Assembly (NCBI GenBank): GCA_036939975.1
Contig: JALLPB010001814.1
Coordinates: 1-10,541 of the forward strand
Origin: Cyclostephanos tholiformis
Taxonomy: Eukaryota > Bacillariophyta > Thalassiosirophyceae > Thalassiosirales > Thalassiosiraceae
Length of the DNA: 10,541 nucleotides
Direction: 5' to 3'
The notes beneath the pieces are model-generated. The model saw nothing but the letters and a program-made list of their open reading frames with translations. It was not told where the DNA came from and did no database searches. The position numbers were made by a program, and so were the translations under genes. Positions within the stretch are counted from its first letter, which is position 1, and every line of letters starts with the position of its first letter. This document shows, in pieces, positions 2,459 to 9,808 of this stretch.

Positions 2459-3358
2459 ATGACTTACTTCCTGAACCGATTGCTTGACTACTCTCCTCTA
2501 CCCCCCCTTGCAAACCATATCGGTCTCGCATGCCTTTTCGCGCAAGTTTCGTTCACTTTGCTATTTAACAAGCGGACGACAATTCTACCCAGCGGCCCTT
2601 GGACGCAACTGTCGGTGTTCACTGCCCATCAAGTAGTGTCGTTGCCCCTCATGATAACATTGACATACTGCGGCTGGAAAGATTGGTTCTTCTATCCATG
2701 TGAGCCTGCTGCCACAGCATCCCAAAGGATATTCGGTTGTTCCAACCCAAACGATATTCCACTCGCCATAGCGTCTGGTGCCATGTTATTGTGGGATATA
2801 CCCACAAGCTTAATTTCCCCACCGTTGAGGGATCGCCTGATGTTGGCTCATCACGTGGGTATGTTTTCGACTGCGTTCTTGATTGGAGGTGGATTTTGTA
2901 AATACGGCAACCAGATTGGATATTATTATGCACCATTTTACTTCGGCGTCATTGAATTCAGCTCCATTTTCCTGAGTTATGTTGATGTCTTTCATCCAAA
3001 GTACGTACATTACCACAGTTGGATGAACTCAAAACACGGTGCAATACAAGAAGCCATAAACCAAGTGAATGAAGTGGGGCGAGTTCTCTTTGCTTTTTCC
3101 TTTTTGGCATTGCGTGGGGTGTACTTTCCGTACGTTTCGTTCTTTTGGGTCATCCCAGATTTAGCCCAGGCATATTACAACCCACCAGACGGCGTGCCGA
3201 TATGGACAGGATATTTTCTTATAAGTATGATAGCCTCATTTGCTTGCCTGCAGGCATATTGGGCGCTACTGATAGCAAAGCATGTGATGAAGGTGTTGCG
3301 TGCCGCTGGCGAGGATGTCACTGCAAAAATCCCTGATAGCGCGACGAAGAAAGATTAG
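2459..3358 (+). CDS. TLC-domain (TRAM/LAG1/CLN8) multi-pass membrane protein
   Basis: Encodes 299 residues with about six to seven hydrophobic segments (roughly 18-36, 50-71, 100-118, 128-146, 154-175, 206-232 and 250-275), so an integral, probably endomembrane, protein. TLC-type features include WDIPTSL at 112-118, the His pair at 131-132 in LMLAHHVGM, EFSSIFLSY at 166-174 and an Arg just before the penultimate membrane block. The length suits a stand-alone TLC protein of the TLCD/TMEM56 type and lacks the Hox-like region of some ceramide synthases. TLC proteins include ceramide synthases and regulators of membrane lipid composition; the substrate cannot be read here. The C-terminus TKKD only resembles a di-lysine ER retrieval signal, with Thr where a second Lys is usual. 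The ATG at 2459 opens the frame directly before the first membrane segment. No intron is needed. It converges on the pseudouridine synthase gene. Confidence 0.83.
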   Translation: MTYFLNRLLDYSPLPPLANHIGLACLFAQVSFTLLFNKRTTILPSGPWTQLSVFTAHQVVSLPLMITLTYCGWKDWFFYPCEPAATASQRIFGCSNPNDIPLAIASGAMLLWDIPTSLISPPLRDRLMLAHHVGMFSTAFLIGGGFCKYGNQIGYYYAPFYFGVIEFSSIFLSYVDVFHPKYVHYHSWMNSKHGAIQEAINQVNEVGRVLFAFSFLALRGVYFPYVSFFWVIPDLAQAYYNPPDGVPIWTGYFLISMIASFACLQAYWALLIAKHVMKVLRAAGEDVTAKIPDSATKKD

Positions 3359-3700: not shown

Positions 3701-5167
3701 CTAAAATCTTCTTACATCATCTTCACAAAAACCAAAGAAATCTTTCCACAGCTTTGGTAAACTTGCGACAAACGGATCAGTTTCCAAAAATTCCATTCCG
3801 CCTAAAGATACGGTTGGCAAGAATACAGATCGGGCATGCAGTGCCACAGACCCATCAGGAAGTGGTCGGTTGACCGTCCCTTGCTGATATCCACTATTCC
3901 TATTATGGTATTGTGAACTAAGATTGTTTCCATATCGTAAATCTCCTGCTATAGGTGCGCCTCCTACTAATCCAAGTAACGCACGGACCTGATGTTTGGC
4001 ACCTGTATCAGTGGTCACAGAGAGCAAATGCCTCGTATTCGAAGAGGATTTTGTTGCAGGCAAGGTCAATAAATGTCTCCATTCAATGCGGCATACGCGA
4101 CCATCGCCGTTGTTTGTCAAAGTATCCGATAAATTGCCAGGTTGGAGAGGTTTCACCTTGACCGAGCCTCCTGCATTTTTTGATTTCTCTCCAATATTGC
4201 CCCCGATTTTCCCCCTTGAACTCTGCAGAATTGCAGACAAACGATAGGACTTCGTGTCACTTAAATACATCGATCGGCTTACCAAGCCGTCCAAGCCGTG
4301 CAATTCTCCACTACGTTTTTCGTCTACACTTCCACCCTCTACTACAACCCAATAGCATTTCAATACCTTTCTCTTACTCCAAGCAACTTGTACACGGCTT
4401 GCCGCCTTGCCATTTTTTGCAAATATCAAAACTCCAGTACACGGTTGATCAAGACGATGGGTTGGCATGAGAAAGTCATTCTTAGAGCCACCGCCAAATG
4501 ATTGAGATTTGAGGTAGGTGAGAAGACATTTCGGATCAGAACCAGAACTATCTTGAATTGTACCGTCACTGCCACCTCCATTTCCAGGTTGAGATTTCCA
4601 TCCTGGTGGTTTGTTCACGACCAGCAAATGGTTGTTCGTAAATATAACTTGTGGCGTTTCAAGTCTAAGACGAGCCTTCGAAATGGATGAATAACTTCTG
4701 CTTTCATTTAATTGACTTAGAGGCGGTTCTTCATTATTTGATGCTGCGAATAAATTTGTGAAGACCTTTGGAGTTTTTGCTTCAGAATGCGAAACATGTG
4801 GAATTGAAAAACAGCAACGCAGTTTGGACTCTGCTACCGTGGTGGATAGAGGGAGTAACAACTGACGGCATGGCCTTGGCAATAGCAATGGTAGCGCTAT
4901 TGTGGATGATGATATGCAAACACATGCCATGATAACCCCGAAGACGCGAACGTAATAGGGGTGGACAAAGAAAGTGCAAGTGCGCCTCGATTCGATTCGG
5001 GAGCTAACGCAGCGCGCTCGTCGCCGAAGATGATTTCTACGATTATGGCCATGAAACTGCTCCAATATGAACTGCTTCCATTCACAAACAGTGACCATGA
5101 TGGAAGAGAGAGATGACGAAATCCCTTTCCGAATCCTCGTGGTGTGTAGATACTCGAGTACGTACAA
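3701..5167 (-). CDS. RluA-family RNA pseudouridine synthase, probably organellar
   Basis: Converts selected uridines in RNA to pseudouridine. The 488-codon frame shows the RluA order: FTNNHLLVVNKPPGW (176-190), catalytic motif HRLDQPCTGVLIFAK (237-251, nucleophile Asp240), TGAKHQVRALLGL (388-400, matching the TGR-x-HQ-I/V-R block with Ala for the usual Arg), GDLRYG (408-413) and VALHARSVFLP (441-451). A Gly/Ser/Lys-rich insert at about 311-355 separates the catalytic halves. Residues before about 165 are not catalytic. Start choice is open: Met1, Met24 (5098) or Met80 (4930). Met80 begins MACVCISSSTIALPLLLP, a signal-like hydrophobic stretch; the Met24 form has an Arg-rich start resembling a mitochondrial presequence. 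Either suggests organelle targeting, but no clear diatom plastid ASAFAP motif is seen. No S4 domain is seen. The target RNA is unknown. The gene is divergent from Ubl-eL41. Confidence 0.85.
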   Translation of the reverse strand: MYVLEYLHTTRIRKGISSSLSSIMVTVCEWKQFILEQFHGHNRRNHLRRRARCVSSRIESRRTCTFFVHPYYVRVFGVIMACVCISSSTIALPLLLPRPCRQLLLPLSTTVAESKLRCCFSIPHVSHSEAKTPKVFTNLFAASNNEEPPLSQLNESRSYSSISKARLRLETPQVIFTNNHLLVVNKPPGWKSQPGNGGGSDGTIQDSSGSDPKCLLTYLKSQSFGGGSKNDFLMPTHRLDQPCTGVLIFAKNGKAASRVQVAWSKRKVLKCYWVVVEGGSVDEKRSGELHGLDGLVSRSMYLSDTKSYRLSAILQSSRGKIGGNIGEKSKNAGGSVKVKPLQPGNLSDTLTNNGDGRVCRIEWRHLLTLPATKSSSNTRHLLSVTTDTGAKHQVRALLGLVGGAPIAGDLRYGNNLSSQYHNRNSGYQQGTVNRPLPDGSVALHARSVFLPTVSLGGMEFLETDPFVASLPKLWKDFFGFCEDDVRRF

Positions 5168-5585
5168 CCTCTCTAGGTAGAATACTTACGATCCAGTTAC
5201 TTAAGTTTGGGTACCATACCTGTTCCAAGGAGTACATAAACGTGTGTACGTGAAGAAAAGTCCTTTTTCTGGTGGTGCTCCTCTTCTCCTTTTTTCTCCT
5301 CCCACCACAAAAGTTGCTGTCTGCTCACCTAAGGGTAAGGATGACCATGGTGCTTTTTCATTCGCTGGATTCACGGCCGCTACCCGGAAACCGTGCTGCG
5401 ATGACGTTCCGTATATCAATATGTCCTTTCGATCGGCTGCGTGGCATTAATCCTTCCCGTGCTCAATCGAATCAAATGTGTAATTCGAATTAGCTGGTCG
5501 TGTCAAACTAACCCTCTCGTCCCCATAATATCCACTCTCTCTTTTCGTCAGGTTTTGAGCAACCGACTTAGGCCAAAAATATTCA
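5168..5585. promoter_or_regulatory. Divergent promoter region between pseudouridine synthase and Ubl-eL41
   Basis: These 418 bases (655 if the synthase starts at Met80) separate two genes transcribed away from each other, so both promoters should lie here. It holds a pyrimidine-rich tract around 5278-5302 and the likely 5' UTR intron of the right-hand gene. Overlapping 60-70-codon frames on both strands have no recognisable content. No confident TATA box or other core element was found. Confidence 0.5.
5335..5551 (+). other. Putative 5' UTR intron of the Ubl-eL41 gene
   Basis: The acceptor side is strong: a branch-point-like CTAAC at 5508-5512, then a pyrimidine-rich run (CTCTCTCTTTTCGTCAG) ending at AG 5550-5551, 34 bases before the ATG. 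The best donor upstream is GTAAGG at 5335, giving a 217-base intron; GTATAT at 5411 is a weaker alternative giving 141 bases. Leader introns are common in ribosomal protein genes of many eukaryotes. The intron lies wholly in the leader, so the protein would be unchanged. Confidence 0.4.
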
Positions 5586-5888
5586 ATGCAGATTATTGTA
5601 ACCGCACCTGCTGGTTCCTCGATGGCATATGCCGTTGAGGGTACCACCACTGTCACCGAGCTCAAGTCCATGATCGAGAACGCTGAGTTCATCCCTGGCC
5701 ACCTCATCCGTCTCATGAGCGGAGACGCCGAGCTTGTGGAGGGCACCCTCGCCGGCCTCGGCATCGAGGAGGACGAGGAACTTTCCCTCATGCTCGAAGT
5801 TCCCGGTGGCATGCGTGCCAAGTGGCGCAAGAAGCGCATGCGTCGCCTTCGTCGCAAGCGCCGCAAGATGCGTCAACGTGCTCGTTAA
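5586..5888 (+). CDS. Ubiquitin-like domain fused to ribosomal protein eL41
   Basis: One 100-codon frame encodes two modules. Residues 1-75 are ubiquitin-like: it starts MQIIV (ubiquitin MQIFV), has a helix-like ELKSMIENAE, and its last 38 residues align without gaps to ubiquitin's C-terminal half, including TL, I, L-x-L-x-L and the final Gly-Gly (74-75). Residues 76-100, starting at ATG 5811, are a complete eL41 of 25 residues (MRAKWRKKRMRRLRRKRRKM, then RQRAR), matching human eL41 at all but three positions. eL41 is a small large-subunit protein at the subunit interface. By analogy with FUBI-eS30, ubiquitin-eL40 and ubiquitin-eS31, cleavage after Gly75 would release eL41 with its native Met. 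The Ubl has one Lys (27), Asp47 where ubiquitin has Lys48, and the tail LEVPGG, so it is not ubiquitin. Codon use is markedly C-ending, as in highly expressed genes. The junction has no intron. Confidence 0.88.
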   Translation: MQIIVTAPAGSSMAYAVEGTTTVTELKSMIENAEFIPGHLIRLMSGDAELVEGTLAGLGIEEDEELSLMLEVPGGMRAKWRKKRMRRLRRKRRKMRQRAR

Positions 5889-7676: not shown

Positions 7677-9409
7677 ATGCATGTGCCCGGTCTCCGTCAG
7701 GGTGATACCGAGGCAAACATGATCTCCTGGATGGAGGGCACACTCGGCTTTAGCCAAGATGTTGCTACGAACCTCTATCAGAATCAGCTCCTCAAGTTCT
7801 GGAAGGAGTTCTCAGACATGAGCGACGAAAACATCGACCGAGTCATCGCAGCAATCTGGCATGACCTCAAGGAGTCAATTGCCAAGATTGCTGTTGTTTG
7901 ACTCAAACTGGTAATCTACTGGATTAAGTTCCAGATTAGAACCAACCAACCCTTCTTTCACAGAAAGGAAACAATCCATCACCTCAGTGAGGTAGAGACA
8001 AACGACTTCCTCCCTTTTAGGGAGCAGAAGGAACATGTTGATGTTGATGCATGATTCAAACTTGAAAAGGAGCCTGACCATGCTTCGATGACCCTTGACG
8101 TGGCCTCTGCACCGAAAGTCTTCAACAAGATTAGGACCATTCTGACCCGCGTTCGAGGGCGCTGGGATTCCCCTTGCCTACGTTATAAGGCATCAACTTG
8201 AACCTCCTGACTGGGAGGAGGACCCGCCTTATGGCAAGGAAGCTTCTATCTATCCGTCCTATGACCAGGAGATGATAGCACGTGCTCCGATTCTCCATCC
8301 TGGTACATGGCATTTTGGGATGGATGAGCACCTCGAGACCAAGGGAACCTTCTACCCGACCTTCAAGAGCAACAACCACAAGGTGTGGTCAATTCTCCAC
8401 AAGATGCCTCCCATCCTTCACCCTGGCACATGGCATGTTGGGATGGACAAGACCCTCAAGACGGAAGGAACCTTTTCCCCAACCTTCAAGGGTGACAACC
8501 ACAAGGTATGGTCAATCCTTCACAAGATTCTTTCTGCCACTGCTGTGGCAACTCGTCGTGAAGTTTACGGCCAGCCAGAATGGCCGACAAGCCTGGCGGA
8601 CCTTGCACACCTATTATTTTGGTGGTGACAAGGTTGACCACATGGCAAGCGACATTCTTAGCACCCTGAAGACCTTACACTACTCAGGTGACCACGCGAA
8701 CTTCACGTTCGACAAGTACTGCACGGCTCATGTCGAGCAGCATAACCGTCATGCTGCCTTGCAGGAATATGGTGTGAAACCCCTCGAGGAAAGAGACAAG
8801 ATCCTCCATTTCCAACAAGGCATCAAGGACCCGACCTTCGAGCCTATTCGTTCTTCCATTATTGTTGGCAATGCGGATGGGAAGTTTCAGGACTTCGACT
8901 CCGTCATGGCCACGTACATGACCTTCAAACGGGCTCAGAAGAGTACCACGACCCGTGTGTCTGCCGTGTCCACAAGTTCTGGCATGGGGCACGGAGGCGC
9001 TAAGCGCGGTGACCCGGATGCCCGTAAGAAGGGCCTTCCCCCTCAATCTGAGATTGACAAGTGTACTCATATCGTGAAGAAACACTACTCCAAGGAAGAG
9101 TACCGCAAGTTTTCTCCTGCCAAGAAGGCTAGACTCTGGCAGCTTAATAACCCAGGTGTGACCCCTGGTACCGGGAAGAAGTCCTCGGGCAAGCACTCGG
9201 CGGAATCTGCAGACTCCAAGATTGCCGCTTTGACCACGGCAGTTTCCTCTGCCGTGACCATGTTATCCTCCTTGTCCAACGCAACTGCAAAGTTGGCTGA
9301 CCCCGCAGCTGAGACCCCTGACACCTCAGCCAGTGATGACGCTTCTAACTGGAACAATCCAGCCCTGGCCCGTCAGGTCCAGTGCCCCAAGAAGCAGAGG
9401 AATGAATGA
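7677..9409 (+). pseudogene. Copia-type gag, broken by two stops and two frameshifts
   Basis: Gag forms the virus-like particle that packages element RNA. ATG 7677 opens an N-terminal helical region (GFSQDVATNLYQNQLLKFW, then DMSDENIDRVIAAI), resembling the gag start of diatom Copia elements. TGA stops lie at 7899-7901 and 8052-8054. Around 8160-8175 the frame shifts into PLAYVIRHQLEPPDWEEDPP, followed by a duplicated ILHPGTWH...VWSILHK module. Around 8550-8560 it shifts again into KFTASQNGRQAW, YYFGGDKVDHMASDIL and FDKYCTAHVEQHNRHAALQE, the conserved gag core, then a Lys-rich segment and a Ser/Ala-rich tail ending at TGA 9407-9409. No CCHC zinc knuckle was seen, which is unusual for Copia gag in general. 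Family assignment is from remembered similarity and motif order. Confidence 0.75.
8290..8535 (+). repeat. In-frame 123-bp tandem duplication within gag
   Basis: Two adjacent copies, 8290-8412 and 8413-8535, each encode 41 residues starting ILHPGTWH. Over the first 39 codons I count 23 base differences in 117 (about 80% identity), with 30 of 39 residues identical. Eleven codons differ only synonymously and nine change the residue. The copies therefore appear to have diverged while still coding, so the duplication predates the decay of this element. Confidence 0.85.
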
Positions 9410-9808
9410 CCCCGTCCCGGAGTTATCTCCATTATATGTACGATGCATCTCATGATTGACCCACGACGCTTGATATTATCAGACTTAAGCTCCAATAAAA
9501 TAGACCCCAATCATGAAACGACACTGGAACTAGACTCCCACGCAGATACCTGTGTGTTAGGCTGTAATGCCCTAATATTACACGACCATCTTAGACCCGT
9601 AAGTGTCCAGGGATATGATCCTGCCCTGGGTACCACACAGTATAACACTGTAAGTGGTGTGCTTGCCTACGACCACCCCACCTCTGGGGAGACATATCAC
9701 CTGGTTGTCAACCAGGCAATCCATATACCTCATCTAGACCATCACCTGCTCTGTCCAATGCAGTGTCGAGTTAATGACATGATGCTGGCCTGCTTGCCGC
9801 CAAGATGA
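9410..9808 (+). pseudogene. Copia-type aspartic protease fragment (start of pol)
   Basis: The protease would cut the gag-pol polyprotein. The frame is the same as the end of gag and is separated only by TGA 9407-9409; the first ATG is at 9443, where a 121-codon stretch begins. The active-site block is TTLELDSHADTCVLG (catalytic Asp is residue 31 counted from 9443). The usual D-S/T-G triad is D-S-H here, a form I associate with this branch of protist Copia elements. HIPHLDHHLLCPMQCRVND follows at about 91-109, a conserved block at the protease end. After this the sequence loses similarity and stops at 9806-9808, so integrase onward is missing. It was either one polyprotein with gag, with the TGA a later mutation, or expressed by readthrough. 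Confidence 0.75.

Follow-up and report, generated by a model that had tools for sequence, protein, structure and literature searches.

A ubiquitin-like domain fused directly to ribosomal protein eL41 in the diatom Cyclostephanos tholiformis and its relatives

Introduction

It has long been asked why some ribosomal proteins are preceded by a domain of the ubiquitin family. The closest described arrangements are ubiquitin–eL40 and ubiquitin–eS31 as well as the FUBI–eS30 protein (FAU) of animals, in which an N-terminal ubiquitin-like domain (Ubl) that is not ubiquitin ends in Gly and is joined directly to a small basic protein. In human cells, the cutting of FUBI–eS30 depends on USP36 and is needed for maturation of the 40S subunit, and cleavage failed in mutants in which the Gly pair had been changed to AA or GV (PMC8354635). 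Both USP16 and USP36 act on FUBI as well as on ubiquitin (PMC10611586); USP enzymes can, thus, adapt to another Ubl. For yeast, ubiquitin is thought to be a cis-chaperone of eS31 and eL40, with an effect called minor but positive, and Giardia ribosomes retain an uncut ubiquitin–eS31 (PMC8122580), from which it follows that cutting is not universal.

The ribosomal protein considered here, eL41 (named eS32 in some PDB entries), makes up bridge eB14 in solved ribosomes, its place being beside h44 in the decoding centre; both eS30 and eL41 are located near the decoding centre (PMC5693986). The original prediction made for the locus under study knew of no described Ubl–eL41 fusion, a remark that needs correction, since fusions of ubiquitin with further ribosomal proteins, eL41 being one of them, are noted as "a few cases" in Table S2 of a 2021 review, which calls them anecdotic (PMC8122580); PMC11354881 repeats this list. 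These "Ub–eL41" entries, some of which may be diatom sequences, have in common with the fusion described below a ubiquitin-family domain and eL41 in one protein; they differ in being presented as few ubiquitin fusions, the text of the review at that point stating neither a breadth across diatoms nor a non-ubiquitin nature of the leader. In the main text of a paper on ubiquitin fusions in algae (PMC6332867), L41 was not found, and the open-licence literature yielded, beyond the two ubiquitin–eL41 mentions, no account of a diatom-wide fusion of a non-ubiquitin Ubl with eL41. In a search with ubiquitin joined to eL41, for which 7974 candidates were scored, double ubiquitins outscored single ones and PF05162 was present in none of the best 120 matches listed. 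Promoters of a diatom "rpL41" appear in two papers; this gene may be either the Ubl–eL41 fusion gene or that of the protein now called eL42. While a ubiquitin or Ubl leader on a ribosomal protein is known, its combination with eL41 as the partner and with a diverged leader, across diatom classes, would be a new variation on it.

The fusion gene of C. tholiformis

The window, i.e., the whole stretch of DNA that was analysed, comprises 10,541 nucleotides of contig JALLPB010001814.1. On its plus strand, positions 5586–5888 constitute one open frame of 100 codons, running from ATG 5586 to TAA 5886–5888. The frame is bounded upstream by an in-frame TGA (5556–5558, plus strand), so that ATG 5586 is its first ATG. 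The 100-residue product is composed of a 75-residue Ubl ending in Gly-Gly (5586–5810, plus strand) and a complete 25-residue eL41 (5811–5888 including the stop TAA, plus strand), with the linker being absent; the junction Gly74-Gly75-Met76 occupies positions 5805–5813 of the same strand, and a cut would fall after Gly75. The leader has a net charge of −11, its tail reads LEVPGG, and its one lysine occupies the Lys27 position.

Frame reading and translation agree with the coordinates of the original prediction (start at 5586, Met76 at 5811), and its reading of a single, linker-less frame from Ubl to eL41 is borne out by two Pfam domains, both above their curated cut-offs. Ribosomal_L41 (PF05162) covers residues 76–98 with 33.4 bits (cut-off 22.3), and ubiquitin (PF00240) covers residues 5–71 with 27.5 bits, a narrow pass at a cut-off of 25.4. 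In alignment with the best solved eL41 chain, 23 of 24 positions are identical, and the second half of the protein is, as is characteristic of the eL41 family, a 25-residue basic helix fitting the curated model. Minus-strand frames of 139 and 107 amino acids overlap the gene; a chance frame or an antisense gene was rejected in view of the conservation of the plus frame described below. Positions 5586–5888 are a genuine Ubl–eL41 fusion gene.

Conservation and taxonomic spread

A protein search with the fusion returned 684 protein clusters at E ≤ 1e-3, with several of the best 120 of 684 listed coming from named diatoms, and a profile of more distant members returned 1100 clusters at E ≤ 10, of which, again, the best 120 were listed. 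The listed matches of both searches provided a readable set of 154 clusters, the window's own included. In 154/154 of these, the Ubl is joined directly to eL41; as in a Ubl–ribosomal protein precursor, the Gly-ended Ubl and the ribosomal protein are conserved as a linker-less unit. The upstream 75 codons, on whose conservation the original prediction had been made to depend, are, hence, conserved. The eL41 part is exactly 25 residues long in 150 of the 154 clusters, the exceptions being P0054, in which it is cut short, and P0007, P0050 and P0126, which have an odd end; in P0069, the Ubl is present only in part. All domain counts given below as fractions of 149 leave out P0050, P0063, P0069, P0146 and P0152, which start other than with Met-Gln.

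Most clusters are without an organism name. Among the matches listed, nine carry one: Stephanodiscus triporus, Discostella pseudostelligera, Mediolabrus comicus, Cyclotella cf. meneghiniana, Thalassiosira oceanica, Chaetoceros neogracile, Cyclophora tenuis, Proboscia inermis and Leptocylindrus danicus. Taxonomy look-up confirmed eight of the nine as diatoms (Chaetoceros under the spelling neogracilis), belonging to the classes Thalassiosirophyceae, Fragilariophyceae, Leptocylindrophyceae and Melosirophyceae; for Cyclotella meneghiniana, a diatom as well, the look-up gave synonyms only. This spread was read from the best 120 matches per search. For 17 of the 154 clusters, mmetsp, a transcriptome project, is listed as a source; the whole fused frame, therefore, occurs in transcripts of other diatoms. 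Scans of viral and prokaryote contigs for the DNA of relatives gave no match. Judging from these protein sequences, the Ubl–eL41 fusion of diatoms appears to be widespread yet hardly studied, a relative of the fusions of ubiquitin with ribosomal proteins known from other eukaryotes, and possibly represents a synapomorphy of the diatoms.

The ubiquitin-like leader

The AlphaFold model of the fusion protein, based on a 35-sequence alignment (mean pLDDT 90.2), displays ubiquitin-type strands and a helix—a predicted beta-grasp fold—followed by a separate eL41 helix. The 50 best PDB matches listed for the model are ubiquitin, ubiquitin variants or chains of ubiquitin-bearing complexes, at 29–34% identity and with a best E-value of 1.8e-8, to ubiquitin. 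At E ≤ 1, PF00240 is recognised in each of the 35 aligned members, although the precomputed Pfam annotation of many listed clusters does not include it. As modelled, the Ubl has the fold of the ubiquitin superfamily, and the ubiquitin-like first half proposed in the original prediction agrees with the PF00240 match, the model and the PDB matches.

With ubiquitin–eL40 and ubiquitin–eS31, the fusion shares a ubiquitin-fold leader ahead of a ribosomal protein. In contrast to their leader, and to ubiquitin proper with its near-identical 76 residues, LRLRGG tail and seven lysines, the diatom leader is identical to ubiquitin at only 25/76 positions and is devoid of LRLRGG and of Lys6, 11, 29, 48 and 63; it has the predicted fold of ubiquitin yet is another protein. 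At the places of these five lysines, lysine occurs in 0/149 sequences, while Lys27 is present in 149/149, Arg42 is retained in 134/149, and the Lys33 place is a lysine in 54/149; the total number of Ubl lysines is one in 81/149 and two in 61/149. A drifted ubiquitin is ruled out by the non-ubiquitin residues that are common to the 149 sequences.

Like the leader encoded in the window, FUBI has a single lysine, which occupies the Lys27 place (PMC8354635). It is also acidic, with a charge of −8 as computed from a sequence whose match with a PDB chain of FUBI spans all 74 residues (146 bits). The partner of FUBI, however, is eS30 instead of eL41, and a profile of 19 Ubls, scored against reference sequences, places canonical ubiquitin (53.6 bits) above FUBI (20.5 bits), with NEDD8 at 23.2 and SUMO1 at 18.3 bits. 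These profile scores suggest, albeit without proof, a convergent origin of the likeness to FUBI; given the lower score of FUBI and the different partner protein, a FUBI homologue is not favoured.

The end of the leader is conserved in a form of its own. The tail L-[DE]-[VI]-x-[GA]-G is found in 127/149 sequences, the Arg72 place is acidic in 138/149, and of the three residues preceding the Gly pair, only the Arg74 place varies freely. The terminal residue is Gly in 154/154 clusters and the penultimate one is Gly in 140 and Ala in 14 (135 and 14, respectively, in the subset of 149). P0097, named Chaetoceros neogracile, is among the 14 fusions with an Ala-Gly ending, which may be a lineage trait that is informative on the protease. 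Across the 149 sequences, the Ubl has a mean net charge of −9.5 (from −14 to −3), compared with 0 for ubiquitin, while the eL41 part carries +16 to +18 in 148/149, with P0054, due to its truncated eL41, as the exception.

These features bear on the possibility that the Ubl, once released, additionally functions as a modifier or signal for which dedicated conjugation enzymes exist. The predicted ubiquitin fold, 13 invariant Ubl columns among the 35 aligned members and the retention of the terminal Gly, Lys27 and Arg42 would be compatible with such a role. The ubiquitin E1, however, should reject an acidic residue at the Arg72 place, part of the family ends in Ala-Gly, and we know of no conjugate of the eL41-leading Ubl; altogether, we judge a modifier function to be unlikely.

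Proposed release of eL41 from a precursor

We consider it likely that the gene encodes a precursor comparable to FUBI–eS30, which is cut after its last Gly and whose acidic domain aids the production of eL41 in cis. According to this proposal, translation would yield a single precursor of N-terminal Ubl and eL41, and a protease of the host, by type either a deubiquitinase or a Ubl protease, would cut after the last glycine, probably co-translationally or soon after translation, thereby releasing an ordinary 25-residue eL41 with Met1 that would then enter the ribosome. The eL41 peptide is shorter than the exit tunnel of the ribosome. The acidic, lysine-poor Ubl would most likely work in cis, providing a folded start for this very short peptide and offsetting its charge of about +17 until delivery; the acidity of the Ubl suggests such charge shielding, an argument that is a correlation. 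With regard to the original prediction, the fusion, the ubiquitin-like nature of its leader and its conservation have, thus, found support, while the cutting and the chaperone or expression role are what we infer.

The retention of the terminal Gly and of the L-[DE]-[VI]-x-[GA]-G tail is as expected of a protease recognition site. Because the tail is other than LRLRGG, ordinary deubiquitinases may cut it poorly, and its conservation points to a Ubl protease. There are also observations which count against the cutting model, namely, the Ala-Gly endings, considering that cleavage of FUBI–eS30 failed after changes in its Gly pair, and the lack of LRLRGG together with the acidic Arg72 place.

If the fusion stayed uncut, diatom ribosomes would permanently carry the Ubl as a component of their own, a situation for which the ubiquitin retained on eS31 in Giardia is a precedent; some solved eL41 chains also have a longer N terminus, amounting to 33–41 residues in total. 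Yet, these extensions are 8 to 16 residues long as opposed to the 75 residues of the Ubl, and the strictly kept terminal Gly would be without a clear use in an uncut chain. In the archaeal 30S subunit, moreover, the N-terminal extension of eL41 lies buried close to the P site, with h27, h44 and h45 around it (PMC7005279). A 75-residue Ubl would hardly fit there, which argues for a cut at the conserved Gly no later than during assembly. A permanently attached Ubl is, on this evidence, very improbable.

Alternatively, eL41 could be made by internal initiation at Met76, with the upstream domain being a separate product or a translational leader and the protease being needless. A Met is present at the junction in 154/154 clusters, and in the window its context, GGTGGCATGC, has G at −3, as against T at −3 of ATG 5586. 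However, five ATGs, four of them in frame, are located between ATG 5586 and ATG 5811, which disfavours leaky scanning to Met76, and further Met codons are found within the Ubl in 147/149 members. An independent start would, furthermore, not need the invariant terminal Gly. Where solved eL41 chains extend further at the N terminus, the junction Met stays internal (5/5 alignments shown; four of the five chains are apicomplexan), hence, the reason for its retention may be the ribosome and not initiation. We, therefore, regard internal initiation as highly unlikely and favour the precursor that is cut after its last Gly.

Genomic context of the fusion gene

The element GGTTTTGAGCAACC (5551–5564, plus strand) is located 21 bases before the start codon of the fusion. 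In 15 of 19 upstream-extended relatives, Glu-Gln-Pro/Leu or Ser-Asn-x occurs 5 to 16 codons before the Met-Gln start, and these leader peptides can be interpreted as an element of the window's DNA, GAGCAAC(C), translated in two frames, an interpretation made from the peptides of the relatives. Shuffled leaders gave on average 0.7 and at most 4 matches in 2000 trials, a figure that is optimistic considering the post hoc choice of the pattern. Genome-wide, the 14-base pattern has six occurrences (the window, one exact and four one-mismatch sites), as many as the reversed control; a general ribosomal-gene motif in this genome is, thus, not supported, and the frames around the other five places are not ribosomal-looking by eye. 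As GGTTTTGAGCAACC follows TTTTCGTCAG, it could begin an exon. If real, the element would be a leader or a splice-site-adjacent signal of the fusion gene.

Elsewhere in the window, positions 2459–3358 (plus strand) encode a 299-residue protein with a TLC domain (TRAM_LAG1_CLN8, 42.4 bits in Pfam), and positions 3701–5167 (minus strand) a pseudouridine synthase (PseudoU_synth_2, 65.5 bits), which faces away from the fusion gene and has its upstream region in common with it. Broken frames at 7677–9808 (plus strand) resemble, by eye, a copia-type retroelement, with a gag-like frame and a frame containing LDSHADTCV; of the four frames compared with Pfam, two are without a match and two have weak matches below cut-off (E 0.011 and 0.083).

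When the 24.95 Mb assembly was searched with the 25-residue eL41, the fusion locus was the sole match. An ordinary ubiquitin–eL40 gene is present in the same genome, while six-frame searches for eS30 and eS31 gave none above cut-off, implying that the assembly is incomplete or that introns interrupt these two genes; the finding of a single eL41 is, therefore, to be read with caution. A strongly altered stretch resembling ubiquitin, with ILGG at its end (L007; G000 contig C1027, 4062–4271), lies within a 268-codon frame and differs from both ubiquitin and the eL41 leader.

Implications

A farther-reaching idea is that diatoms, independently of FUBI, evolved their own acidic, lysine-poor Ubl, which became the standing leader of eL41 early in their history and which in its released form would serve diatoms alone as a modifier or signal linked to the making of ribosomes. 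We regard this as unlikely; if true, peptides of the decoding centre would have gained acidic Ubl leaders more than once.

With the Ubl–eL41 fusion, a third arrangement of a ubiquitin-family leader and a ribosomal protein comes into view across several diatom classes, in which the leader precedes a peptide of merely 25 residues and is hardly usable as a ubiquitin supply. The fusion, thus, separates the idea of the leader as a "cis-chaperone" from that of the leader as a "ubiquitin source", and does so in a group with genetic tools, in which the distinction is testable.
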